Of a stretch of DNA of 64,000 nt, positions 6,507-21,297 are shown one piece after another. The position numbers and the translations under genes were made by a program. Source of the DNA: Paraburkholderia sp. (lineage in GTDB: Bacteria > Pseudomonadota > Gammaproteobacteria > Burkholderiales > Burkholderiaceae); assembly GCA_004322045.1 (NCBI GenBank), contig SCRN01000014.1, positions 124,001 to 188,000 of the forward strand, given 5' to 3'. Each line of letters starts with the position of its first letter. Position 1 is the first letter of the stretch. The notes under the pieces are model-generated. The model was not told where the DNA came from. It did no database searches and worked only from the letters and a program-made list of their open reading frames with translations.

Positions 6507-7700
6507 CTAGAGCGCCATGGCGTGCTCCAAGGCCTCGGTGGACGTCGCGTAGGGCCGCGTGAAGCTCGCGAATTCGATGAACGGGCGACCCGCGACGGCG
6601 GCGGCGATGCGCTCGGCGGCGTGGCCGTCGCCGTAGGGGCTGATCGGCTCGCACAGGGATGCGCCGTTGTTGCACCCGCCGAGCAATGCGCGCACGCCTT
6701 GAACGATCTTCTCGGTATGCGCGCCGACGAGACGCACGGCCCCTGCTGTGAGCGCTTCGGGCCGCTCGGTGACCTCGCGCATGACGAGCACGGGCTTGCC
6801 GAGCGCGGGGGCTTCCTCCTGCACGCCGCCCGAATCGGTCAGCACGATGGCGGCCCGCTGCATGAGCCGCACGAAGCCGAGATAGTCGAGCGGCTCGATC
6901 AAATGCAGGTTGGGCGTCGCGCCGATGCGGGCGTAGGCGGGGCCGCGCACGTTCGGGTTCAGGTGAATCGGATAAACGATTTGGACTTCGCCGCTGCGCG
7001 CAAGCGTGTCGAGCGCCGAGCAAATCGAGGCGAAGCCTTCGCCGAAACTTTCTCTCCGATGTCCGGTGACGAGCACGATCGGCACCGCCTCGTTCAGTTC
7101 GGGCAAACGGGCGTCCAGCCGCTGGCGCAGCTCGGGGTCGGCGTCGATGCGAGCCGCCGCCATGTAGAGCGCATCGATCACGGTGTTGCCCGTCACGAAG
7201 ATGCGCCCCGCGAGCGACTCGGTCATCAGGTTCGCCTTGGCGCTTTGCGTCGGCGCGAACATGAGATCGCTGATGGCGTCGACCACACGACGGTTCATTT
7301 CCTCGGGCCAAGGGCTCGACAGGTCGCCCGTGCGCAAGCCTGCTTCGACGTGGCCGACCGGAATCCGGCGATGAAACGCGGCCAACGCCGCGGCGCAGGC
7401 AGTCGTCGTGTCGCCATGCACGAGCACGCGATCGGGCCGCTCCTGCGCGAGGATGTCGTCGAACGAGAAGATCAAGCGGGAAGCGAGCCCGTTGAGCGTT
7501 TGATTGGCCGTCATCAACGCGAGGTCGTAGCGCGGACGAATATCGAACAGTTCGAGCGCTTGCTCGAGCATCGATCGGTGCTGACCGCTCACGCAGACGA
7601 TCGACTCGAGCCCCGGTGTTTTATCCAATGCTTTGATGACGGGCGCCATCTTGATCGCTTCGGGACGCGTGCCGAAAACGGACATGATTTTTGTTGCCAT
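6507..7700 (-). CDS. wecB: UDP-N-acetylglucosamine 2-epimerase (non-hydrolysing)
   Basis: 397 aa, full length for the family. The N-terminus carries the hallmark VFGTRPEAIKMAPVI. Other family blocks are VSGQHRSMLEQAL, VHGDTTTA, HVEAGLRTG, TGHRRESFGEGF and DSGGVQEEAP. The enzyme interconverts UDP-GlcNAc and UDP-ManNAc in the cytoplasm. It is the first gene of the wecB / bcsB-like / nfrB / nfrA transcription unit, so it probably supplies UDP-ManNAc to the NfrB synthase. A chromosomal copy serving other surface sugars elsewhere cannot be excluded. The ribosome site before ATG at 7700 is weak (GGGGA). Confidence 0.93.
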   Translation of the reverse strand: MATKIMSVFGTRPEAIKMAPVIKALDKTPGLESIVCVSGQHRSMLEQALELFDIRPRYDLALMTANQTLNGLASRLIFSFDDILAQERPDRVLVHGDTTTACAAALAAFHRRIPVGHVEAGLRTGDLSSPWPEEMNRRVVDAISDLMFAPTQSAKANLMTESLAGRIFVTGNTVIDALYMAAARIDADPELRQRLDARLPELNEAVPIVLVTGHRRESFGEGFASICSALDTLARSGEVQIVYPIHLNPNVRGPAYARIGATPNLHLIEPLDYLGFVRLMQRAAIVLTDSGGVQEEAPALGKPVLVMREVTERPEALTAGAVRLVGAHTEKIVQGVRALLGGCNNGASLCEPISPYGDGHAAERIAAAVAGRPFIEFASFTRPYATSTEALEHAMAL

Positions 7701-8203
7701 TGTTGATAATCCCCGATCCGTTCAATGCTTTATGCGTCGCCGAATAAAGATAGTTTTCGCGCACGATGCGTCGTGCGCATGCCGTGCGAATACAACCATT
7801 CGATGAAGCCGTGACGAATGCCGGCGCTTGTATCGGCGCCGGGCGGGGCGCGGTTCACATCACAGATCGCAATCGCGCCGAGGGTGAATTTTCCGAATTT
7901 CTGAGACTCGGCTTGCAAACAATCGTTATCCCTATAACCAAACAAACGTTAAGACGTATGACGCCTGGCGGGCAAACGTTTTCGCAGTTTTGATTAACTC
8001 GTCATCCGCATTTAGCGGCGAGTGTCACTCTAGGGCGACACTGCCGAAAATCAAAAATTGCGATTGATTCACCGACGCCACGGTCTTACGAAAAGCATCG
8101 CGCATCCGAAGACCATTGGACGGACAGGCACACTAGATCGTTAGGCACGACGCGCCGGTCGAGTGTCTTGATATACTCGCTGAGTGTATTTTGGGAGGGC
8201 CAC
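7701..8203. other. Intergenic region upstream of wecB (probable promoter region)
   Basis: About 500 bp without a credible gene, less GC-rich than the flanks. It must hold the promoter for the minus-strand wecB locus and the one for the plus-strand DUF4160 remnant. An inverted repeat AGTGTC-N10-GACACT lies at 8021-8042 and could be an operator. No convincing -35/-10 or -24/-12 pair was found for wecB. Confidence 0.4.
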
Positions 8204-8464
8204 GTGCCAACAATCAGTGTATTTTTTGGCATCGTCATCAGCATGTACTGGCGAGATCACAATCCGGCGCACTTTCACGCCCGGTAAGCGGACTTCGAGG
8301 CCCTGATCCGCATCGACACGTTGGAAGTGATTCGGGGATCGCTGCCGAAACGGGCGCTCGCGCTCGTGTTGGAATGGGCGTCGGAACACCGCGCCGAACT
8401 CAACGAGGATTGGGAACTGTGCCGCGCCCTCGCCGCACCGAAACCCATATCGCCCTTGGAGTGA
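8204..8464 (+). pseudogene. DUF4160 family gene broken by an in-frame TAA
   Basis: Reading from GTG at 8204, preceded by a GGGAGGG ribosome site, gives PTISVFFGIVISMYWRDHN and then PAHFHAR. A TAA follows at 8285-8287, and then in the same frame ADFEALIRIDTLEVI, SLPKRALALVLEWASEH and ELNEDWELCRAL up to TGA at 8462-8464. Both halves match the DUF4160 family, whose usual text at the break is HFHA-x-Y-x-x-(Y/F)EAL, so one base change from a Tyr codon (TAT/TAC) to TAA explains the stop. The rest of the frame is intact, suggesting a recent loss. The downstream DUF2442 gene starts 5 bases later. Confidence 0.85.
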
Positions 8465-8469
8465 CCGTC

Positions 8470-8727
8470 ATGATTGCATGGAGCGTAACCACGTTGAAGG
8501 TATTGCCCGGCCATCGACTAGAGGTGTCGTTTGCGGACGGCGTGCGAGGCGTGGTCGACATGTCGCGGGATAATTTCAGCGGCGTCTTTGCCCCCTTGGC
8601 CGATGAAGCGTATTTTGCGCAGGCAACGATCCGTGATGGGGTGGTGGTCTGGCCCAACGGCGTCGATATTGCACCGGACGCGATGTATGACGAAGTACTG
8701 GGGCACAAGCCCGGGATCGCAGCGTGA
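8470..8727 (+). CDS. DUF2442 domain protein
   Basis: 85 aa from ATG at 8470. The sequence has the DUF2442 pattern: LEVSFADGVRGVVDMS, then FAPLADEAYFAQATIRDG and VVWPNGVDIAPDAMYDEV. DUF2442 genes commonly sit directly after a DUF4160 gene, and together they resemble small paired modules of unknown function, sometimes suspected to be toxin-antitoxin like. Here the DUF4160 partner is interrupted by a stop codon, so this gene may be an orphan remnant. It relies on the same upstream ribosome site region as its partner (GGAGTGACCGTC before ATG). The 250 bp after it, up to the exaC stop, contain nothing recognised. Confidence 0.85.
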   Translation: MIAWSVTTLKVLPGHRLEVSFADGVRGVVDMSRDNFSGVFAPLADEAYFAQATIRDGVVVWPNGVDIAPDAMYDEVLGHKPGIAA

Positions 8728-8976
8728 AGAAGCGAACGCCCAGACGCCACGGGATCTTTACCTCAGACAATGAGCGAGGTTTGCGTGACGCGCGGGAAGT
8801 TCCAGAGAACCGAAAGGAAAGCGGTTGAAATGACTCGATGAGTCTACCCAGCGAGCAGCTTCCACCACGACGAACTACGCCATGGCGTAGCCGTCGCGGA
8901 GAAGCGGATGCATCGTTGCCGGTTGCCGGCCCGCCTGACGCGGGCCGCAACCGTTCATGCAGTTACATACAAACGC

Positions 8977-10503
8977 TCAGAAGAACCCGAGCGCTTCGGC
9001 TTGGTAGCTCACGAGCAAACACTTCGTCTGCTGATAGTTCTCGAGCGCCTTCTTGTGCGTTTCGCGACCGATGCCCGACTGCTTGTACCCGCCGAACGCG
9101 GCATGTGCGGGATACAGGTGGTAGCAGTTGGTCCAGACGCGGCCCGCTTCGATCTCGCGACCCATGCGGTACGCGCGCGTCCCGTTGCGCGTCCACACGC
9201 CTGCACCGAGGCCGTAGAACGTATCGTTGGCCAGTTCGATCGCTTCTTGCTCGTCCTTGAACGTCATCACCGACGCCACCGGCCCGAAGATCTCTTCCTG
9301 GAACACGCGCATCTTGTTGTTGCCGAGCAGCATCGTCGGCTGAATGTAGAAGCCCGTGCCCAGATCGGGCGCCGGCGCCGTGCGTGCGCCGCCGGTCAAG
9401 CATTGCGCGCCTTCGCCGCGGCCGATATCGATATACGAGAGGATCTTGTCGAGCTGCTGCTGCGAAGCTTGAGCGCCGATCATCGTCTGCATGTCGAGCG
9501 GATGCCCCGCCTTGATCTTGCCCACCCGCGCGATGGCTTTTTCGATGAAGCGGTCATAGATCGACTCTTGAATCAGCACGCGCGAGGGACACGTGCAGAC
9601 TTCGCCCTGATTGAGCGCGAACATCGCAAGCCCTTCCAAGGCCTTGTCGAGGAACGCGTCGTCTTGATCCAAGACGTCGGCGAAGAAGATGTTCGGGCTC
9701 TTGCCGCCCAACTCGACCGTCGAAGGAATCAGATTGTCGGCCGCGGAGCGCAAGATATGCTTGCCGACGGGCGTCGACCCCGTGAACGCGATCTTCGCGA
9801 TGCGCTTGCTCGTTGCGAGCGCCTCGCCGGCTTCCTTGCCGAAGCCGTTGACGATGTTGACGACTCCCGGCGGGAACAAATCGCCGATCAGCTCCATCAG
9901 CACGAGCACCGACGCGGGCGTTTGCTCGGCCGGCTTCATGACGACGCAGCAACCGGCCGCAAGCGCGGGCGCGAGCTTCCATGCCGCCATCAGCAGCGGG
10001 AAATTCCACGGGATGATCTGACCGACCACGCCCATCGGCTCGTGGAAGTGATAGGCCACCGTGTTGTCGTCGATCTCGGAGATCGCGCCTTCCTGCGCGC
10101 GGATGCAGCCGGCGAAATAGCGGAAGTGGTCGACGGCGAGCGGCAGGTCGGCGGCCATCGTTTCGCGCAGCGGCTTGCCGTTGTCGATCGTCTCGGCCAC
10201 CGCCAGCAGCTTCAGGTTCTTTTCCATGCGATCGGCCACGGCGAGCAGCGCGTTGGAGCGCTCGGTGGTCGAGGTCTTGGCCCACTTGCGGCGCGCCGCA
10301 TGTGCGGCGTCGATCGCAGCGTCGACATCGGCTGCGCTCGAACGCGGGATCCGGCAGAACGGCTTGCCGTTGATCGGCGAAACGTTTTCGAAATACTCGC
10401 CCGCGACAGGAGGCACCCATTTGCCGCCGATGAAATTGTCATATTGCTTGCGATACGGGTACTCGACGTCCAAACCGAGCTGTTTCAGGTCAAACAGGTC
10501 CAT
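8977..10503 (-). CDS. exaC: NAD-dependent acetaldehyde/aldehyde dehydrogenase, ExaC type
   Basis: 508 aa, with an AGGAGACACGCA leader before ATG at 10503. Family blocks are clear: [21 protein letters not shown] for cofactor binding, FTGSTPVGK, the general-base motif VELGGKSPN, and the catalytic cysteine in [11 protein letters not shown]. The C-terminus has [20 protein letters not shown]. This group oxidises the aldehyde released by PQQ alcohol dehydrogenases to the acid in the cytoplasm. The gene lies downstream of the dehydrogenase/cytochrome pair on the same strand but has its own -24/-12 promoter (10564-10580) and upstream palindrome (10674-10690), so it is probably controlled by the same AcoR-like activator. 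Confidence 0.93.
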
Positions 10504-10563: not shown

Positions 10564-10580
10564 GGCAACAAGCATGCCAA
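10564..10580 (-). promoter_or_regulatory. Sigma-54 (-24/-12) promoter for exaC
   Basis: The minus strand reads TTGGCATGCTTGTTGCC, matching TTGGCACG-N4-TTGCW with exact GG-N10-GC spacing. The predicted start of transcription lies about 50 bases before the exaC ATG. Confidence 0.8.
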
Positions 10581-10673
10581 CTGAAAGTCTCGGTATGCGC
10601 TATAAAAGCCGCTTCGCCGGTCGGCTTCACATTGCTTCAATTTCGAACAGTTCTGCCTCGCTCGCCTGGTGAC

Positions 10674-10690
10674 TGTCGCAATTTGGGACA
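10674..10690. promoter_or_regulatory. Candidate activator site (UAS) upstream of exaC
   Basis: TGTCGCAATTTGGGACA, a near-perfect 17-bp palindrome about 100 bp upstream of the -24/-12 element. It differs by one base from the perfect site at 19257-19273 upstream of pqqA. Confidence 0.75.
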
Positions 10691-10712
10691 GTCGCGGCGA
10701 ACCGAACTGCGT

Positions 10713-11990
10713 TCATTTCACCGACATCGAGGCCATCATCCCTTGCCCTGCGCTCAGCGGGCCGGCATTCAGCGGCGTGGTCGAGGCGCGCGCCGCGTCG
10801 GCCGTCAGCTTGGCGCTAGTCGTCGGATAGCCGTTGGCATTCAGCAAATACGCCATCAGGTCGGCGTATTCGCTGTCCTTGAGCTTTCCGGGGCGGTCGG
10901 CCGGCATGTTGGTCGCCATATAGTTATAGATGCCGCCGATGGTCAGGTGGGAATTACTTGCGGGTGCAAACGCGGCGCCGCTCAGCGCGGGCGCGGTTAC
11001 CCCTTGCAGATCCGCGCCGTGGCACTTGGCGCAGTTCGCCGCAAACAAGCGTTTGCCGTGCGCAACCTGCGCCCGGTCGAACGAAGGCGCGGCGGCGGTC
11101 GCGGTCGCGGCCGCATCCGACACTTTGACGATACGCCCGCGCATGCGAGCCGAGTCGCGCGCCTCGCGTAACAGGCCGCTGTGCGGGCCGGGAACGGGGC
11201 CATCGAGATAAGCGAAAACCGTCGTCTTCGCCCGCGCGTCTTGTATCGACGCGGGCGGCATCCAGGCTCGCGTCAGATCGGCAAGACGCCCGTCGGCTTG
11301 CATCGTGTCGAGCGCGGTGTCGACCTTGCGCTGCAACACGTTCGCCCCTGCTTTGAATGCGAAGACGAGTTGCCAGTCGGAGTAAGGCGAGTGGGTCTTG
11401 CGCACGTCGAATTGGCGGCCCGCATGCGCTTTCTCGTATGCGACCACGGCGGGATACCAAACGATTGCGCGGCCCGCGCGGCCGCTTGCCACGGCATCCA
11501 CGGTGCGCTCGGGCGTGTTCTCGAGAACGAAGCGCACGTGCTGCTCTTGCACGGCAATCAACTGCGAAGGACTGCCATAGGTCGCGGCCACGGTCTCGCG
11601 CGGTGCGATCTCGGATGCGCCGGAGGCCGTGCCGACGCTAACGTAGCTCGCGTTTAAATAGCCTCGCGAGAACAGCATCTTGCCGTCGGAAGCATCGGCG
11701 GCGTGCGAGCGCGGAAAACCCGCGATCACATCGCAGTCGCGGCCGAGCGTCGCGTGCAGTTCCTTGAGCGAGACGCCGTCGTCGTCGCCCGCATCGCCGA
11801 ATTGAACGAAGGTGCTATCGATGCCGGCCGCTTTGAAGGTCTCAGTCGCCACGAGCTTGTCGAGCGCCGCGGATGGGCTGCCCTTGAACGTGCAGATGCG
11901 GACGGGAGAGGCAGCCGCGCTCGAAGAAAAGAAGGCGAGAGCCGCGGCGACCGATACGGCTGCCGCGCCAAAATTGAAGTGCGTGTTCAT
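10713..11990 (-). CDS. Periplasmic binding-protein / cytochrome c fusion (XoxJ- plus XoxG-like)
   Basis: 425 aa from ATG at 11990. There is a signal peptide (AAAVSVAAALAFFSSSAAA). Residues about 30-270 resemble a family-3 solute-binding protein (RICTFKGSPSAALDKL, CDVIAGFPRS, VWYPAVVAYEK). Residues about 305-390 form a cytochrome c domain with CAKCH at 320-324 and a possible axial Met in NMPADRPG. It follows the PQQ dehydrogenase gene by 100 bp on the same strand, so it is likely the periplasmic electron acceptor. In classical xox or mox loci the cytochrome (G) and the MoxJ/XoxJ binding-like protein are separate genes; here they are one polypeptide. Upstream in-frame codons overlap the dehydrogenase gene and look non-coding, so the later start is chosen. 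Confidence 0.85.
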   Translation of the reverse strand: MNTHFNFGAAAVSVAAALAFFSSSAAASPVRICTFKGSPSAALDKLVATETFKAAGIDSTFVQFGDAGDDDGVSLKELHATLGRDCDVIAGFPRSHAADASDGKMLFSRGYLNASYVSVGTASGASEIAPRETVAATYGSPSQLIAVQEQHVRFVLENTPERTVDAVASGRAGRAIVWYPAVVAYEKAHAGRQFDVRKTHSPYSDWQLVFAFKAGANVLQRKVDTALDTMQADGRLADLTRAWMPPASIQDARAKTTVFAYLDGPVPGPHSGLLREARDSARMRGRIVKVSDAAATATAAAPSFDRAQVAHGKRLFAANCAKCHGADLQGVTAPALSGAAFAPASNSHLTIGGIYNYMATNMPADRPGKLKDSEYADLMAYLLNANGYPTTSAKLTADAARASTTPLNAGPLSAGQGMMASMSVK

Positions 11991-12090
11991 GATGGTGCTT
12001 TCGAAAAGCGCCGCGCCGCATGCGACCGCCGTGCCTGGCAGGCGGTCGCGGCATGAGCCTAGCGGTTGAGCGCGGTAATGAAGTGACCGA

Positions 12091-13818
12091 TCAGCCGTGG
12101 TGCAGGGCGAAGACGTACAGCGTTCCGCCGCGGGGCACCTTGTCGGCGATCTTCGCCATCGGGCCGCCCCAGATCGGGTTCGCGCCGCCGTAGCCGGCGA
12201 GCACGGCGACATACTCTTGCCCGTCCGCTTCGAAGATGGCAGGCTGCGCGACGATGCCGCTCGCCAGTTGCGGGCTCTTCCAGAGCACCTTGCCTGTCGC
12301 CGCATCGAACGCATAGAGGTGGCCGTCGAGCCCGCCGCTGAACGCAAGGCCGCTTGCCGTGCTGGCCACGCCGCCGTTCCAAGGCATCTTGCTCCAGTGG
12401 CTCCACACCTTCTTGCCGGTGTTCACGTCGATGGCTTGCAATTCGCCGTAGCCATGGCTACCCGGCTCGGGCTTGATTTCGAAGCCTTCACCGAGGTACG
12501 GCAAGCCTTCCATGTAGCTCACGGATTTACCCGACAAGCTCATGCAGGCGTGCAACGACGGCACGAACGCAAGGTGCCGCTCGGGATCGTACGAAACCGA
12601 CCACCAGTTCTTGCCGCCGAGGAAGCTCGGGCAGGTGTTGATCGTCGTGCCGACGTTCGGGTACTTCGACTTGTCCTCGATCGGATCGCCCTCGCTCGTG
12701 TAGCCGGTGACCGACGTGGCCTTCACGAATGCGTTCGCATAGATGAGCTTGCCCGTCGTGCGATCGATAGCGTGGAAGAAGCCGTTGCGGTCCGCATGGA
12801 TGATCGCGTCGTAATCCTTGCCGCCGTACTGAATGTTGGCGAGGATCGGCGTATTGACGCCGTCGTAGTCCCACGTGTCGTTACGCGTGTACTGGTAATG
12901 CCACTTGATGTCGCCCGTCTTCGGGTCGAGCGCGAGCAGCGAATCGCTGTACAAGTTGCTGCCCGGGCGCAGCGAAGCGAGCCACGGCCCCGGATTGCCC
13001 ACGCCCCAGTACAGGGTCTTGGACGCCGGATCATACGTGCCCGTCAGCCAGGACGCGCCGCCGCCGTGCTCTTGCATGCCGTCGGGCCAGGTGTCGCCGC
13101 CTTTCTCCTTCTGCGAGGGAATCGTCACGCGCTTCCAGAGCACATTGCCATTGTCCGGATCGAGCGCGGCGATGAATCCGCGCGCGCCGTATTCGCCGCC
13201 AGAGTTGCCGACTACGATCGCGCCGTCGATCGCGAGCGGCGCGAGCGAAAACGCATAGCCGACACCGGGATCGAACATCCGCTTCCTCCACGCCACGGCG
13301 CCCGATTGCGCATCGAGCGCGACGACCTCGCCATCGAGCATGGCGATATAGACGTTCTTGCCGTAGAGCGCGACACCGCGATTGACCACGTCGCAGCAAG
13401 CATTCTTGAATGCCTCCGGACCCAGCTTCGGTTCGAACTTCCACAGCGCCTTGCCCGTGATGGCATCGAACGCGTAGACGTTGTCTTTAGGAGTGCTAAC
13501 GAACAGGTACCGGCCGTTGACGATCGGTGTCGCTTCGAAGCCTTGCTGCAATTCGGCGGGGAACTTGTAGGTCCAAGCGACGCCGAGCTTGCTCACGTTG
13601 GACGGATCGATCTGCTTGGCCGGCGAATGCGACTGGCCGCTGTACGTGCGGTAGTAGGTCAGCCAACCGGGATCATTCTGCGCGCCTGCTAACCGGTCGA
13701 AGGTCACCGCCTCATAGTCCGCAGCCGCGATCGATGGCTGCGACGTGAGCCCGACGGCCGCGATGGCTGCGACGGCGAGCGCCGCGCGGCCCCAGGCCGA
13801 AACTGAACGTCTCTTCAT
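12091..13818 (-). CDS. PQQ-dependent alcohol dehydrogenase, probable lanthanide type
   Basis: 575 aa from ATG at 13818, preceded by AGGAGA. There is a signal peptide (AALAVAAIAAVGLTSQPSIAA). Eight-bladed propeller blocks are seen, such as GKALWKFEP and GYGGANPIWGGPMAK. The vicinal Cys pair is C141-C142 (NACCDVVNRG). Metal and catalytic candidates are E209 (GGEYG), N275 (GNPGPW), D317 and D319 in NDTWDYDGVN. In the methanol/ethanol dehydrogenase family the second Asp, two residues after the catalytic Asp, marks rare-earth enzymes (XoxF, ExaF, PedH); calcium enzymes have Ala, Ser or Thr there. The enzyme oxidises primary alcohols in the periplasm with PQQ made by the nearby pqq genes. Substrate range cannot be told from sequence. 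Confidence 0.92.
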   Translation of the reverse strand: MKRRSVSAWGRAALAVAAIAAVGLTSQPSIAAADYEAVTFDRLAGAQNDPGWLTYYRTYSGQSHSPAKQIDPSNVSKLGVAWTYKFPAELQQGFEATPIVNGRYLFVSTPKDNVYAFDAITGKALWKFEPKLGPEAFKNACCDVVNRGVALYGKNVYIAMLDGEVVALDAQSGAVAWRKRMFDPGVGYAFSLAPLAIDGAIVVGNSGGEYGARGFIAALDPDNGNVLWKRVTIPSQKEKGGDTWPDGMQEHGGGASWLTGTYDPASKTLYWGVGNPGPWLASLRPGSNLYSDSLLALDPKTGDIKWHYQYTRNDTWDYDGVNTPILANIQYGGKDYDAIIHADRNGFFHAIDRTTGKLIYANAFVKATSVTGYTSEGDPIEDKSKYPNVGTTINTCPSFLGGKNWWSVSYDPERHLAFVPSLHACMSLSGKSVSYMEGLPYLGEGFEIKPEPGSHGYGELQAIDVNTGKKVWSHWSKMPWNGGVASTASGLAFSGGLDGHLYAFDAATGKVLWKSPQLASGIVAQPAIFEADGQEYVAVLAGYGGANPIWGGPMAKIADKVPRGGTLYVFALHHG

Positions 13819-14008
13819 GTATGTCTCCTGTGTCGGCGCAAGTCGTTGCTTCGCCAATCGGTCGCAACTCGTGCATCGGATCGAGCTGCGACCCTGTGCA
13901 ACGCACTCGGGCCGCTCTCATGCAAGGCTTGGTTGGTCGATTTATCGCGGCGCGCATTACTCGAGTCATGTCGCTCGATATGCGAACATTCGCCGCGGGC
14001 CACGCTGA

Positions 14009-14025
14009 CGCAAGTCATATGCCAT
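14009..14025 (-). promoter_or_regulatory. Sigma-54 promoter for the PQQ dehydrogenase operon
   Basis: The minus strand reads ATGGCATATGACTTGCG, with exact GG-N10-GC spacing. It drives the dehydrogenase and fused cytochrome with a leader of roughly 180 bases. Confidence 0.75.
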
Positions 14026-14082
14026 CGCTTCGAAATCCTGTGCCCATGGGCTTGCGCCGTCGCGCGCATGGATCGAAGCCGT

Positions 14083-14096
14083 TGTCGCACGCGACA
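14083..14096. promoter_or_regulatory. Candidate activator site between divergent promoters (compact form)
   Basis: TGTCGC-AC-GCGACA, with the same half-sites as the pqq and exaC palindromes but only two spacer bases instead of five. It lies between the minus-strand promoter at 14009 and the plus-strand promoter at 14259. Confidence 0.5.
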
Positions 14097-14144
14097 GGAC
14101 GCCGCCGCGATGCGTTCAAATCTGAAACAGATTCGGCCAGCCGG

Positions 14145-14161
14145 TGTCGCGAAACGAAACA
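14145..14161. promoter_or_regulatory. Candidate activator site between divergent promoters
   Basis: TGTCGCGAAACGAAACA, a 17-bp site of the form TGTCGC-N5-GAAACA. The second site upstream of pqqA (19278-19294) has the identical outer parts. Confidence 0.6.
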
Positions 14162-14258
14162 CCCGAGTGCACACGTCGACCGGCGATCGACCCGTAACGC
14201 CTGCGCCGATCAAGCGATGTCAGATCGAGCATGACCTTACCCGATCGATTGCGACCCA

Positions 14259-14275
14259 TTGGCACGGTTCTCGCG
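14259..14275 (+). promoter_or_regulatory. Sigma-54 promoter for the small gene and TonB receptor
   Basis: TTGGCACGGTTCTCGCG has a perfect -24 box and GG-N10-GC spacing. The -12 box is slightly off (TCGC for TTGC). The ATG at 14337 follows the predicted start by about 50 bases. Confidence 0.7.
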
Positions 14276-14336
14276 TTAGAGTGTGCGACGCCGCCAGCAT
14301 TGACGGCACAATGAGACGCGGCGCTGGGAGGACATC

Positions 14337-14564
14337 ATGAGACGGTTGCGGATGGTGGTGGACAAGTGGCTGGCGCCTGCGCCCGAGGCATCGATCCGCG
14401 TCGAGCGCTGCGCCGCCGGCTCCCAGGGCAAGCATCGCGTCCGCGTGCAGGTGGACGGGCCGCGCGGCACGACCGCCCTGTACTTCTTCCGCCACGACGA
14501 CGGCGCGTGGTATGTGTTCCCCCCGGAACAAAGCGGCGTCACGATGGGTGTACGGGCGGCGTGA
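14337..14564 (+). CDS. Small conserved-looking protein upstream of TonB receptor
   Basis: 75 aa, not recognised. A GGGAGGACATC leader directly before ATG supports translation. It has a basic N-terminus (MRRLRMVVDKWL), then VRVQVDGPRGTTALYFFRHDDGAWYVFPPE, which looks like a compact beta-rich soluble domain. No signal peptide or membrane segment is seen. The stop is only 3 bases before the TonB-receptor start, so the two are probably translated together from the -24/-12 promoter at 14259. Its place in the alcohol-oxidation island suggests a link to that pathway, but no function can be assigned. Confidence 0.7.
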   Translation: MRRLRMVVDKWLAPAPEASIRVERCAAGSQGKHRVRVQVDGPRGTTALYFFRHDDGAWYVFPPEQSGVTMGVRAA

Positions 14565-14567
14565 CGC

Positions 14568-16985
14568 ATGATGCGCGCTCGTGGTTCTTCAGTTCGTGGT
14601 TCCTCAGCTACCGCTTCGCTGCATCGCGGGCGTGCCCTAAACCGACGCAAGCGCGCAGGCGGGCGTCTAGCGACGGCTGCGTTGCTGGGATTAGCGTTGA
14701 CGTATACGGCAGCCAAAGCGCAAACGCCGAGCGTGATCGAGCCGACTAGCCCTGCCGCCCCGAATTCGTCGAATTCGCCGAACGCACCGAACGCACCGAA
14801 CGCGAACGCAGCCGCGAACCCTAGCGTCACGCTTGCACCGATCGTCGTGGTCGGCACGACGCCGCTCCTGGGCGTCGGCTTGCCGCTCTCACAGGTGGCG
14901 GCGAACGTGCAGATCGTGCGCGCCGCGCAACTCGACGCGCAGCATCGCACCACGCTCACCGATTTCTTCGAGAAGAACCTGCCGAGCGTGAGCATCAACG
15001 AGGCCCAAGGCAACCCCTATCAGGTCAACGTCAACTATCGGGGCTTCATCGCCTCCGCGTTGCTGGGCGCGCCGCAGGGCTTGTCGGTGTTCCTCGATGG
15101 CGTGCGCATCAACGAGCCGTTCGGCGATGTCGTCAACTGGGACTTGATCCCGCAAGCGGCGATCGACACCATCGAGCTGATGCCCGGCTCGAATCCGACC
15201 TTCGGCTTGAACACGCTCGGCGGCGCGCTCGCAATCACCACGAAAAACGGCAGGGACTACCCCGGCGGCGAGGCGCAAATCACGGGTGGCTCGTGGGGCC
15301 GCAAAACGGCCGAAGTGCAGCAGGGCGGCAAGCTCGGCGACCATCTGGACTACTTCGTGACCGGTAACGCCGCGAACGATAACGGCTGGGCGCAAAAGAA
15401 CGCGAGCCGCGTGCGGCAGGCCTTCGGCAAACTGCGCTATACCGACGCCGATACGACGCTCGCGCTGTCCGCGGGCGGCATCGACAACAACCTGCTCGGG
15501 ATGCAGACGATTCCGCGCTCGTTTCTCGGCGACCCGCGTCAACCCTATACCTTCCCCGATCAAAACCTGAACCACGCCGGCTATGTGACGCTATCGGGCG
15601 AGCACGATTTCAACGACGCCGTCCGGCTGAGCGGCACGGCTTACTATCGCCGATTCGTCAACAGAAACATCAGCAGCAACAACAACGCGAACTTCGGTGA
15701 AACGCTGCCCGACGGCTCGATCAATACGCCGCAAGCCACCAACGTCGATTCCACCGTCGCGACCGACAGCTACGGCGCGAGCCTGCAACTGACGTTGCTC
15801 GGCAAGCTCGGCGGCATGGACAATCAACTCGTAGCGGGTATTGCCGCGGATTTCGCGAACTCGCACTACACGTCGGCGTCGCAGGACGCCGTTTTCACGG
15901 CCACGCGCGCAGCGATCGGCATCGGCGGCTTCACGCAGCGCGTCAATGCGAAAACCCGCGACGCCAATCTCGCGTCGTACCTGCAAGACACGCTTTCGCT
16001 AACGAAGCAATGGGCGCTGACGCTTTCGGGCCGCTATGACTGGGCCAAGAAAACAATCGGCGACGAGAGCGGCAAACAACCGCTGCTCGACGGCAGCCAT
16101 GTGTTCTCGCGCTTGAACCCGGCGATCGGCGTGACCTGGCACCCGGCGCGCAGCTTCACGGCCTATGCCACTTACAATGAAGGCATGCGCACGCCCACCG
16201 CGATCGAACTGGCCTGCGCCGATCCGAACGCGCCCTGCTCGCTGCCGAACGCGTTCATCGCCGATCCCGCGCTCGCCGCGGTCGTCTCGAAGACGTACGA
16301 GGCCGGGGCGCGCGGCAAAATCGGCGCCGCAACGAGCTGGAGCGCCGCGCTGTACCGCACGACGCTCGTCGACGACATCCAGTTCATCAGCGCCCCGGCC
16401 ACTGCCCAAGGGTACTTTCAAAACGTGGGCAAGACGCGCCGCCAAGGCATCGAGCTTTCCGGGCGCTCGCGATTCGGGCCGCTCGGCGTCGCCGCGAGCT
16501 ACAGCTACATCGACGCCACCTATCGCTCGAGCTGGGTCGAGAGTAGCCCCAGCAATTCGACCGCGGACGGCAACGGCAACATCGTCGTTCACTCGGGCGA
16601 CAAGATCCCCGGCATTCCCGAGCACACGGTGAAGCTGCGTCTGGACTACGCCGCCACGCCAAAATGGACGATCGGCGCCAACGCGACTTATCGCGGCGGG
16701 GTGTACGCCCAAGGCAACGAGAACAACGCCGACCCGAACGGCAAGATCGGCGGCTACGTCCTGATCGACGTCGATACGGCCTACCGCATCACGAAGCGCT
16801 TGCAGGTGTTCGCGACCGTATCGAACGTGCTGAACAAGCGTTATGCAAGCTTCGGCGCGCTCGGACAAAACTTCTTCAACGGCCCGAACCACACCTTCGA
16901 CGGCTCAGCGCCCGTGAACGAAGCGTTCGTCGGGCCGGGTGCGCCCAGGGGCGCATGGTTGGGCGTGCGCTATGCGTGGGATTGA
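14568..16985 (+). CDS. TonB-dependent outer-membrane receptor
   Basis: 805 aa from ATG at 14568. There is a long basic leader and signal segment ending near AKAQ (about residue 52), and then a low-complexity NSPNAPNAPNAN stretch. A TonB-box-like APIVVVG follows, then a plug domain (DGVRINEPFGDVVNWDLIP, PTFGLNTLGGALAITTKNG). The C-terminal half is a beta-barrel ending in VRYAWD with a terminal aromatic region (F-G-A-L, W-L-G-V-R-Y). Such receptors import scarce ligands: iron chelates, PQQ, or lanthanide chelates. Being divergent from a predicted lanthanide-type PQQ dehydrogenase and sharing its regulatory region, it is a good candidate for rare-earth or PQQ uptake; that is inference from context only. 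Confidence 0.9.
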   Translation: MMRARGSSVRGSSATASLHRGRALNRRKRAGGRLATAALLGLALTYTAAKAQTPSVIEPTSPAAPNSSNSPNAPNAPNANAAANPSVTLAPIVVVGTTPLLGVGLPLSQVAANVQIVRAAQLDAQHRTTLTDFFEKNLPSVSINEAQGNPYQVNVNYRGFIASALLGAPQGLSVFLDGVRINEPFGDVVNWDLIPQAAIDTIELMPGSNPTFGLNTLGGALAITTKNGRDYPGGEAQITGGSWGRKTAEVQQGGKLGDHLDYFVTGNAANDNGWAQKNASRVRQAFGKLRYTDADTTLALSAGGIDNNLLGMQTIPRSFLGDPRQPYTFPDQNLNHAGYVTLSGEHDFNDAVRLSGTAYYRRFVNRNISSNNNANFGETLPDGSINTPQATNVDSTVATDSYGASLQLTLLGKLGGMDNQLVAGIAADFANSHYTSASQDAVFTATRAAIGIGGFTQRVNAKTRDANLASYLQDTLSLTKQWALTLSGRYDWAKKTIGDESGKQPLLDGSHVFSRLNPAIGVTWHPARSFTAYATYNEGMRTPTAIELACADPNAPCSLPNAFIADPALAAVVSKTYEAGARGKIGAATSWSAALYRTTLVDDIQFISAPATAQGYFQNVGKTRRQGIELSGRSRFGPLGVAASYSYIDATYRSSWVESSPSNSTADGNGNIVVHSGDKIPGIPEHTVKLRLDYAATPKWTIGANATYRGGVYAQGNENNADPNGKIGGYVLIDVDTAYRITKRLQVFATVSNVLNKRYASFGALGQNFFNGPNHTFDGSAPVNEAFVGPGAPRGAWLGVRYAWD
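14762..14809 (+). repeat. Short tandem repeat (GAAYKC-type 9-mers) in the TonB-receptor linker
   Basis: Consecutive units GAATTCGTC, GAATTCGCC, GAACGCACC and GAACGCACC, followed by two GAACGC units. They encode an Asn/Ser/Pro/Ala-rich spacer between the signal peptide and the TonB box. It is another in-frame linker repeat like those of nfrA and nfrB. Confidence 0.75.
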
Positions 16986-17136
16986 GGCGGTGCGCCGGGT
17001 GAGCCGGGAGCCCTCGCCCGCTCGCCGGAATGGGGATAACCCCCGATACCGCCCGGCAGCCGCCGAGTGCATCGTACGAAATAGGCGCTCCCTAGACATG
17101 TTCTGACTGAAGCAATCACGCGGCCGGTGCGGCGAT

Positions 17137-17153
17137 CTGGCGCAATTCTTGCT
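17137..17153 (+). promoter_or_regulatory. Sigma-54-like promoter upstream of the activator gene
   Basis: CTGGCGCAATTCTTGCT, with GG-N10-GC spacing and a perfect TTGCT -12 box. It ends 55 bases before the chosen ATG of the activator. No TGTCGC palindrome was found upstream, so control of this element is uncertain. Confidence 0.55.
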
Positions 17154-17208
17154 CTTATCGGTGACCGAAAGTGTAGGCCACGTGCCGACGCTCGCCCCGG
17201 AGGAGACA

Positions 17209-19209
<2,001 letters not shown>

Positions 19210-19244
19210 GCCAGGGCCGATTCGTCCCGCTCGCGCGTTGCACC

Positions 19245-19260
19245 GACAGTACACACTGTC
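19245..19260. promoter_or_regulatory. Inverted repeat next to the pqq activator site
   Basis: GACAGT-ACAC-ACTGTC is a perfect inverted repeat overlapping the first bases of the TGTCGC palindrome at 19257. It could be an additional half-site arrangement for the same activator. Confidence 0.45.
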
Positions 19261-19273
19261 GCAATTTGCGACA
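19257..19273. promoter_or_regulatory. Candidate activator site (UAS) upstream of pqqA, perfect palindrome
   Basis: TGTCGCAATTTGCGACA is a perfect 17-bp palindrome about 150 bp upstream of the -24/-12 element, a normal distance for an enhancer-binding activator. Confidence 0.8.
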
Positions 19274-19277
19274 CCCC

Positions 19278-19294
19278 TGTCGCCGAATGAAACA
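19278..19294. promoter_or_regulatory. Second candidate activator site upstream of pqqA
   Basis: TGTCGCCGAATGAAACA (TGTCGC-N5-GAAACA). Its centre is 21 bp from that of the first site, so both lie on the same face of the helix. Confidence 0.65.
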
Positions 19295-19422
19295 GTGTCC
19301 GTCGCATGATGGGCCGGAGCACGCACCGGCCCGCCCTAATTCCCCCACGAGCCGCCTGCGCGAATGTGTCGCCCCTCCTGGCCGACCGAGTTCATCGCAT
19401 CGCGTCGTGTTCGATCCCACGC

Positions 19423-19439
19423 TCGGCATACCCCTTGCT
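19423..19439 (+). promoter_or_regulatory. Sigma-54 promoter for pqqABCDE
   Basis: TCGGCATACCCCTTGCT, with GG-N10-GC spacing and a perfect TTGCT -12 box. The predicted start of transcription is about 60 bases before pqqA. Confidence 0.75.
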
Positions 19440-19510: not shown

Positions 19511-19585
19511 ATGCAGTGGACTACCCCGACTTATACCGATCTGCGCTTCGGCTTCGAAATCACGATGTACATCGCCAACCGATAA
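19511..19585 (+). CDS. pqqA: PQQ precursor peptide PqqA
   Basis: 24 aa ([20 protein letters not shown] then IANR), with a good GGAGA ribosome site. The Glu and Tyr that are cross-linked to make PQQ are in EITMY (E16 and Y20, spaced E-x3-Y). The peptide is the substrate of the radical SAM enzyme PqqE with its chaperone PqqD. It is the first gene after the -24/-12 promoter and is followed by a strong hairpin, consistent with higher expression than the enzymes downstream. Confidence 0.97.
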
Positions 19586-19651: not shown

Positions 19652-20575
19652 ATGTTGATTAAGGTTCTTGGTTCCGGCGCCGGCGGCGGTCTGCCGCAAT
19701 GGAACTGCAATTGCGCCAACTGTTCGCAGGCGCGTGCGCGCACGGGGCCGCTCAAGCCGCGTACGCAGTCATCGATAGCCGTGAGCGAGAACGGCGACGA
19801 TTGGGTGCTCGTCAACGCATCGCCCGACATCCTGACTCAACTGCGCGCCCACGCCGAATTGCAGCCTGCTCGCGCGCTGCGCGATAGCGGCATCGCCGCC
19901 GTCATGCTGTGCGATGCGCAGATCGATCACGTGACGGGTCTGCTCATGCTGCGCGAGCGCACGACACCGCTCCCGCTTTATGCGACGCAGCCCGTGCTCG
20001 ACGATTTGTCGAGCGCGTTGCCGCTCGTTCCCCTGCTCTCCCACTACTGCGGCGTCGACCAGCACGCGATCGTGTTGGGAGAGCCGTTCACCATCTCGCC
20101 GCTCACCGGTTTGCGATTCACGGCGATCGCGATCGACAGCGCACCGCCGCCCTACTCGCCGCATCGCGGCTCGCCGGTGACGGGCGACAACGTCGCGTTC
20201 GTGATCGAAGATGTCGCCACCTCGGCCACGGCGTTTTACGCGCCGGGACTTGCGCGCACGTCGCCTGCGATCCTGGCGGCGATGCGATCGGCCCAGCTCG
20301 TGCTCGTGGACGGTACGTTTTGGACCGATACGGAGATGATCGATCTAGGTCTATCGAGCAAGCGCGCGGCCGAGATGGGACATCTCGCGCAATGCGTCGT
20401 CAATGGCGATCCGGGCATGATCGAACTGCTCGACTCGCTGCCGAGGGCCTCGCGCAAAGTGCTGATTCATATCAACAACACGAATCCGATTCTCGATCCT
20501 CGTTCCGATGCCTACGCGACCGTGCGTGCGCACGGCATCGACATCGCCGAAGACGGAATGGAACTGCAGGTATAG
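19652..20575 (+). CDS. pqqB: PQQ biosynthesis protein PqqB
   Basis: 307 aa, full length. The N-terminus [19 protein letters not shown] and the following CNCANC cysteines are typical of PqqB. The fold is metallo-beta-lactamase-like, with the family text [20 protein letters not shown] and [10 protein letters not shown]. PqqB is an iron-dependent hydroxylase that acts on the excised Glu-Tyr precursor in the cytoplasm. It lies 66 bases after pqqA and 2 bases before pqqC. Confidence 0.97.
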
Positions 20576-20577
20576 CC

Positions 20578-21297
20578 GTGAACGAGACCTCGCTTACCCC
20601 GCCGCTGCACGACACGCCCTGGACGCACGAACAATTCGAAGCGCAATTGCGCGCGCTCGGTGCTGGCTATCACATCCACCACCCTTTCAACGTGCGTCTC
20701 AATAGCGGCCGCTGCTCGCCCGATGAAATCCGCGGGTGGGTCGCAAACCGCTTTTATTACCAGATCAACATTCCGCTGAAAGACGCGGCGATCATGTCCA
20801 ATTGCGACGATCGCGCCACCCGCCGTCGTTGGGTGCAGCGCATTCTCGACCACGACGGCTATGGCGACGACGCGGGCGGCATCGAAGCATGGGTGCGGCT
20901 GGCCGAAGCCGTCGGCATCGAGCGCGATCGCTTGTGGTCGTTGTCGCAGGTGACGCCTGGCGTGCGGTTCGCCGTGGACGCCTATGTCAACTTCGCTCGG
21001 CGCGCGCCTTGGCAAGAGGCCGTCTGTTCGTCGCTGACGGAAATGTTCGCGCCGCAGATCCACAAGGACAGGCTCGCAGGCTGGCCCGACCTCTATCCTT
21101 GGATCGCCGCGCCGGGGCTGCAGTATTTCCGCAGCCGCATTCCGCTTGCCCAGCGCGATGTCGAACATGGCCTTGCGGTCACGCTCGACTACTTCAAGAC
21201 GCCCGCTGAGCAGCGGCGGGCGCTCGACATACTTCAATTCAAGCTCGACATTCTCTGGTCGATGCTCGATGCGATCGAACAGGCGTATTCGTCATGA
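20578..21297 (+). CDS. pqqC: Pyrroloquinoline-quinone synthase PqqC
   Basis: 239 aa from a GTG start two bases after the pqqB stop. The haem-oxygenase-like fold is shown by [21 protein letters not shown], followed by [20 protein letters not shown] and RILDHDG; HHPF, RFYYQ and the later EMFAPQIH contain the conserved active-site residues. PqqC carries out the final cofactor-free oxidation and ring closure giving PQQ. The stop overlaps pqqD (ATGA). Confidence 0.97.

Follow-up and report, generated by a model that had tools for sequence, protein, structure and literature searches.

A predicted sigma-54 regulon for PQQ-dependent alcohol oxidation in Paraburkholderia sp. and its relatives

Results and Discussion

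Five sigma-54 promoter elements in a PQQ alcohol-oxidation cluster

We analyzed a 64,000-nucleotide window from the Paraburkholderia sp. assembly GCA_004322045.1 (contig SCRN01000014.1, positions 124,001 to 188,000; G000:C37:124001-188000 in our numbering, the genome comprising 5.99 Mb in 54 contigs), which carries genes for alcohol oxidation dependent on pyrroloquinoline quinone (PQQ). The cluster includes the acetaldehyde dehydrogenase gene exaC, a PQQ-dependent alcohol dehydrogenase operon (adh), a divergent operon of a small gene and a TonB-dependent receptor, a gene for an AcoR-like activator, and pqqA. An initial annotation had placed all of these genes in one sigma-54 regulon under that activator, on account of five -24/-12 elements with GG-N10-GC spacing. 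The genes and elements on which this proposal turns are as follows.

8977..10503, minus strand: exaC, acetaldehyde dehydrogenase (NCBIfam NF050026, 902.6 bits; cut-off 900)
10564..10579, minus strand: sigma-54 -24/-12 element of exaC (TGGCATGCTTGTTGCC), score 14.8, identical in loci L016-L020
12091..13818, minus strand: PQQ-dependent alcohol dehydrogenase (TIGR03075, 560.2 bits; cut-off 480.05)
14009..14024, minus strand: sigma-54 element of the dehydrogenase operon
14260..14275, plus strand: sigma-54 element of the small gene/TonB receptor operon
17138..17153, plus strand: sigma-54 element of the activator gene
17209..19209, plus strand: AcoR-like sigma-54 activator
19424..19439, plus strand: sigma-54 element of pqqA, GG-N10-GC, aligned with relatives
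19511..19585, plus strand: pqqA, precursor peptide of 24 amino acids (from the translation)

All five elements were present. When both strands of the window were scored with a consensus-type sigma-54 matrix, the four top scores fell at 17138, 10564, 19424, and 14009. The element at 14260 ranked tenth because TCGC replaces TTGC at -12, but it is kept in relatives, with a TTGGCAY...CTCGC-type sequence in L016-L020 and L049, though not in L021. To assess conservation more widely, we used the window together with 80 named loci of Burkholderia sensu lato retrieved with the activator as query; these are the best 80 of 574 relatives, so that the sample is biased to close relatives. A promoter scoring at least 13 was found upstream of adh in 78/78 regions, of the activator in 76/81, and of exaC in 16/17, compared with 199 of 3953 random 520-bp segments from the same loci.

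Paired enhancer sites upstream of the promoters

When the window was aligned with L016-L020, the conserved blocks were the promoters and paired copies of a 17-bp dyad, TGTNNC-N5-GNNACA, which is the putative enhancer and usually occurs in pairs.

10633..10649, minus strand: enhancer site 2 of exaC (TGTTCGAAATTGAAGCA), kept in the alignment, 41 bp from site 1
10674..10690, minus strand: enhancer site 1 of exaC (TGTCCCAAATTGCGACA), kept in the alignment
14113..14129, minus strand: enhancer site common to the divergent pair (TGTTTCAGATTTGAACG), its TGTTTCAG half kept in L016-L020 and the other half less so
14145..14161, minus strand: enhancer site common to the divergent pair (TGTTTCGTTTCGCGACA), near-invariant in L016-L020
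19257..19273, plus strand: enhancer site 1 of pqqA (TGTCGCAATTTGCGACA)
19278..19294, plus strand: enhancer site 2 of pqqA (TGTCGCCGAATGAAACA), 21 bp from site 1

The palindromes had been described as TGTCGC-N5-GCGACA. This holds perfectly for 19257, while 10674 has one mismatch, and the right halves of 14145 and 19278 contain two each. The palindrome at 14083, also named as a site, reads TGTCGC-N2-GCGACA (14 bp); with a spacer of 2 instead of 5, outside the conserved blocks and not kept even in the closest relative, L016, it was rejected as an enhancer. Two sites had been overlooked, namely, 14113-14129, which is the conserved partner of 14145, and 10633-10649.

Among regions with a promoter, a dyad matching at least 9 of 12 positions lay within 230 bp upstream in 78/78 cases for adh, 16/16 for exaC, and 37/38 for pqqA/pqqB, against 189 of 3000 control segments. 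Pairs (two dyads of at least 8/12, 17-45 bp apart) occurred in 70 adh, 15 exaC, 33 pqqA/pqqB, and 4 activator regions, against 60/3000 controls; since the motif was refined on the same loci, these counts are descriptive rather than a blind test. The distances within pairs cluster at 30-32 bp (adh), 31 and 41 bp (exaC), and 21-22 bp (pqqA), i.e., about two, three, or four helical turns.

Genome-wide placement of the sites

The initial annotation had named a random distribution of the palindromes across the genome as evidence against it. The bare palindrome is indeed unspecific: with at most one mismatch, it occurs at 62 places in the 6.0-Mb genome, compared with 31 for the reversed pattern, and just two copies are perfect, one of them being 19257. 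We therefore rejected it as a genome-wide marker. In contrast, the palindrome combined with a promoter at the right distance is specific. Composite patterns of TGTY-N9-RACA followed by YGGC-N7-TTGC at 92-122 or 123-153 bp gave 3 + 5 = 8 matches in the genome, with 0 and 1 for the reversed controls; patterns with off-by-one spacing, taken as rough chance controls, gave 3, 1, and 0 matches, and the reversed control of the first gave 2. Four of the eight matches lie in the cluster (exaC, adh, and pqqA twice), one precedes a porin gene (Porin_4) at C52:89557, and one, at C10, precedes an acetone/acetophenone-carboxylase-like operon, the best models of which score below cut-offs, beside its own AcoR paralog. 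Those on C7 and C24 are likely chance matches, having no regulon gene behind them or being coding-like.

We then analyzed relatives with slightly tighter patterns, one applied to 31 genomes (11 of the genus) and the other to the 11 genus genomes. The first gave 21 genus matches and one outside the genus, and the second 12 genus matches, 33 in total in the 11 genus genomes, with no match for either control. A tblastn comparison of the window proteins, an acs copy (acetate-CoA ligase, NF001208, 748 bits on one partial copy), and the porin with all 34 matched loci assigned 31 of the 33 genus matches: adh 10, exaC 7, pqqA 8, acs 4, and porin 2. The remaining two are G009 C2:812257 (L152), again without a regulon gene behind it or coding-like, and the C10 operon; none of the regulon genes lay at the match outside the genus (L134). 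Each of the ten genus genomes with the activator has at least one composite match, and G004, which lacks the activator at E 1e-200, has none, the target genes not having been searched for in that genome. Within the named loci and the window, 136 matches came from the composite scan; all but 7 could be assigned to a cluster gene, and two of these 7 have a receptor-like or porin-like start. The enhancer-plus-promoter arrangement also occurs in two Burkholderia loci (L059 and L088), in L059 before a protein with a porin-like start.

At the porin locus (L128, G000:C52:83000-96000), the gene at 6558-7936 has a strong sigma-54 element (TGGCATGCATGTTGCA) with TGTCGCAA repeats upstream, and the same is seen in G005; this porin is a candidate remote member of the regulon. 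The C10 locus (L127, G000:C10:84000-99000) has, at 8435 and 8551, a very strong sigma-54 element (TGGCACACCCTTTGCA) and a 17-bp dyad of another sequence (TGTCCGGATTCCAGACA), preceding the carboxylase-like operon divergent from its own AcoR-like gene, i.e., the same layout in another DNA code. In G009, adh and pqqA are present twice (L135, L143, and L153 on C1; L149, L159, and L165 on C2), and both replicons carry sites of the regulon type. Since C2 holds the activator and C1 an exaC site, a single activator may act across the two replicons.

The activator and its recognition helix

The activator, which likely starts at ATG 17209, contains a GAF domain (PF01590, 54 bits, residues 68-197), a Sigma54_activat AAA+ domain (PF00158, 232 bits), and a Fis-type helix-turn-helix domain (HTH_8, 38 bits), a layout that we take to be that of AcoR. 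The GAFTGA loop, which the initial annotation had placed in a gene inside the cluster, was read at 18442-18459 (residues 412-417). The AAA+ domain, this loop, and the Fis-type domain make the protein a sigma-54 enhancer-binding protein, and the N-terminal GAF sensor domain makes it AcoR-like. Acetoin dehydrogenase genes do not adjoin it; that arrangement, which would define AcoR in the strict sense, sits at C19 with a 38% identical paralog. The activator of Trinickia sp. Y13 shares 97% identity with the one in the window. The activator is found no more than 10 kb from the dehydrogenase in 77/80 loci, and the three loci without a dehydrogenase (L038, L044, and L076) are short (5.3-12.8 kb).

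The recognition helix varies together with the half-sites. In 74 loci it is SRNT; the other 7, namely, the window (codons 19144-19155) and L016-L021, have SRAT. In the SRNT loci, GCAACA makes up 174/281 half-sites and GCGACA none, with at least one GCAACA in 73/74 loci; in the SRAT loci, GCGACA makes up 24/51 half-sites and GCAACA 0/51. L049, named Trinickia terrae, has SRNT and GCAACA. A third form, SRTT, was found in the genus genomes G008 and G010 and in a diverged second copy in G007, and the sites of G008 and G010 include GGAACA. This co-variation is good, although not conclusive, evidence that this activator would bind these sites.

The activator gene had also been assigned a sigma-54 promoter of its own. 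The element is conserved, but a close enhancer is mostly not found, so that autoactivation in the window is at most a possibility; there, the closest sites are those of pqqA, 2.1 kb downstream, and those of the divergent pair, 3 kb upstream. This promoter may be driven from a distance or answer to another activator; it may also need no specific site, as has been reported for BmoR with its hairpin deleted in the accessible part of PMC8899819. Direct divergence of activator and dehydrogenase, with starts 337-972 bp apart, was seen in 9 of the 77 named loci; the dehydrogenase enhancer, the sites of which were listed in several of the nine, then lies between both genes and could serve both. Unlike in the window, the activator of L139 (G002), L140 (G010), and L159 (G009) is near and divergent from the dehydrogenase with the enhancer between them. 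Upstream of the window's activator promoter, a box (GGGGATAACCCCCGATAC, 17032-17049) is kept in L016-L020, the same pattern not being found in the other loci, and is possibly a site of another regulator.

A predicted lanthanide dehydrogenase

By TIGR03075, the dehydrogenase belongs to the methanol/ethanol family of PQQ dehydrogenases. Its motif WDYDG (codons 12859-12873) is present in 77/77 loci. Aligned with solved relatives, it has WDYD, compared with WDFD in the best match, 6zcw (415 bits; titled quinoprotein ethanol dehydrogenase and presumably PedH), and WDFS in 1flg (ExaA, a calcium enzyme). In the accessible passages of PMC5487730, an Asp two residues after the catalytic Asp marks the lanthanide type, and Ser is found in the calcium-type ExaA and PedE. 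The extra Asp, as in enzymes of the PedH/ExaF/XoxF kind, is present here, and the dehydrogenase is thus predicted to use a lanthanide, the regulon probably serving rare-earth ethanol oxidation.

Elsewhere in the genome (L126, G000:C9:14000-33000; 8642-10492 and 12877-14970), a XoxF-type dehydrogenase (WDYDG) is accompanied by a XoxJ-like gene and by an AcoR-like activator that shares 45% identity with that of the window; no sigma-54 element scoring at least 12.5 was found in these 19 kb.

A proposed regulon and its alternatives

Together, the conserved promoters, the paired sites, their genome-wide placement, and the co-variation of helix and half-sites support the regulon proposed in the initial annotation. 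Judging from the sequence, we put the probability at about 0.88 that the cluster is a sigma-54 regulon run by its encoded AcoR-like activator, with targets, inducer, and metal as set out here. The activator would bind paired 17-bp dyads, whole helical turns apart, about 50-150 bp upstream of the -24/-12 promoters, and we infer that an alcohol or aldehyde, sensed through the GAF domain, is probably the inducer. It would then open the promoters of the dehydrogenase operon, exaC, the small gene/TonB receptor operon, and pqqA together, one site pair (14113-14161) serving both divergent promoters. Outlying members would be the porin in this genome and acetyl-CoA synthetase in four relatives. Gene content suggests ethanol as the substrate, and the route would lead from ethanol through acetaldehyde and acetate to acetyl-CoA, combined with cofactor synthesis and outer-membrane entry.

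Several observations weigh against this reading. In the window, the composite patterns were shaped on the cluster's own promoters, so recovery of those sites is not independent, as it is for the sites in relatives and before porin and acs; the latter two were recovered in just 2 (porin) and 4 (acs) of 11 genomes. The activator's own promoter has a dyad within 230 bp in only 10/76 regions (against 189/3000 controls), leaving 66/76 without one. In G006 (SRAT), a GCAACA half-site lies before pqqA, in a region outside the count of 51 half-sites. In an unrooted protein tree built without the helix-turn-helix, the Ala and Thr forms fall in one clade, essentially Trinickia, so the co-switch represents one or two events rather than many. 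Finally, three AcoR-like paralogs, 37-45% identical, could overlap in binding. Were the sigma-54 promoters real but acted on by one of these (C9, 45% identical; C19, 38%; C10, 37%), the cluster activator would control something else, and its promoter's frequent lack of a close site would fit. We regard this as improbable, since the cluster activator stays close to the dehydrogenase, its recognition helix varies with the site, and G004, without the activator, is without the composite site, while the paralogs adjoin other operons: xoxF (C9), the carboxylase-like genes (C10), and acetoin dehydrogenase (C19).

Slightly less probable still is that another system, LuxR/NarL-type or two-component as in Pseudomonas, is mainly in control, the sigma-54 elements being minor or secondary. 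A 2017 study of Azospirillum by Singh, going by its title, reportedly links a LuxR-type regulator and sigma-54 to a quinoprotein alcohol dehydrogenase. That system, as far as the title tells, is alike in its sigma-54 control, but the partner is of LuxR type where the window has an AAA+ enhancer-binding protein with paired sites. The related ped genes of P. putida are discussed with AgmR and PedS2-PedR2 in the accessible part of PMC12997753. On the other hand, no blocks of the aligned upstream regions are better conserved than the promoters and paired sites, sigma-70 promoters and LuxR boxes not having been searched for. The idea that the elements arose by chance in GC-rich DNA can draw on the 62 places of the bare palindrome but is contradicted by conservation in dozens of species and by the 31/33 genus composite matches before functionally related genes; we consider its probability negligible.

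Compared with known systems, the proposed regulon resembles the AcoR/BmoR group, which, in the accessible part of PMC8899819, is sigma-54-dependent with a distant enhancer, BmoR being alcohol-responsive. It differs in that the target is a PQQ dehydrogenase and cofactor regulon, the acetoin-type copy being separate (C19). In PMC12826043, which lists the Azospirillum study among its references, EraR and RpoN are used as an interacting pair. The ped cluster of Pseudomonas putida, with its PedE/PedH lanthanide switch, is similar in the Asp at the metal position of PedH (PMC5487730, in part), but the regulators named for it in the accessible text of PMC12997753 are AgmR and two-component systems; of sigma-54 regulators, that text mentions CbrB alone, and AcoR is absent from it. 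Also similar is an insect-associated genomic region of Burkholderiaceae symbionts, which, in passages of PMC9088363 and PMC7397029, combines a PQQ cluster and a PQQ dehydrogenase with a sigma-54-dependent Fis family regulator; many of its genes are induced in symbiosis. However, that region spans about 40 genes, RuBisCO and formylmethanofuran genes included, and these two kinds were not seen among the scanned window genes. Its regulator could correspond to the window activator or to the xoxF-linked one on C9. Those passages give neither binding sites nor a regulon. We found no description of this regulon, its sites, or the operon's regulator in the literature within reach, which is weak evidence because subscription papers were mostly out of reach.

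The proposed regulon would be a defined, testable one that gives enhancer positions for the oxidation of alcohols with PQQ in a large group of bacteria from soil, plants, and insects, and it would link sigma-54 to a predicted lanthanide enzyme. It may also show how, in nature, an activator and its enhancers change specificity in concert, which is open to single-residue and single-base tests. A wider reading, which we offer tentatively and at somewhat less than even odds, is that of a rare-earth alcohol-oxidation regulon across Burkholderia sensu lato, in which one AcoR-like activator couples the predicted lanthanide dehydrogenase to PQQ synthesis, to the activation of acetaldehyde and acetate, to a porin, and to a TonB receptor that may serve a lanthanide carrier, and in which one residue of SRxT (Asn/Ala/Thr) re-set the DNA code, with promoters rewritten to match.

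Neighboring genes

The remaining genes of the cluster are the following.

10713..11990, minus strand: periplasmic solute-binding (MoxJ/XoxJ-like) and cytochrome c protein, CAKCH at residue 320
14337..14564, plus strand: small gene of 75 amino acids, first in the receptor operon, without Pfam or NCBIfam match
14568..16985, plus strand: TonB-dependent receptor (Pfam PF00593, PF07715)
19652..20575, plus strand: pqqB, first of the following pqq genes (TIGR02108, 388 bits; cut-off 245)
Open reading frames at 21294 and 21608: pqqD and pqqE, named from reading of the frames, without a family search

The binding-protein/cytochrome c fusion matched Pfam SBP_bac_3 (below cut-off) and Cytochrome_CBB3, with a weak TIGR03871 match, also below cut-off; both parts are spanned in 76/77 loci. 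For the receptor, the only solved relatives at E 1e-15 were two structures of E. coli YncD/PqqU. Residues Y99, R304, and R365 form the signature of E. coli PqqU in the accessible part of PMC12124388. The aligned positions in the window protein are L166, I385, and a gap, so a role as a PqqU-like PQQ importer is unsupported; none of 17 sequences had the signature residues at any of the three positions, which is not final at 24% identity with an uncertain alignment near R304/R365. The receptor is possibly one for a lanthanide carrier. The 75-amino-acid gene occurs in L016, L017, L019, L061, and L075; it opens the receptor operon in Trinickia and is also found near adh in the two loci outside the genus (L061 and L075).

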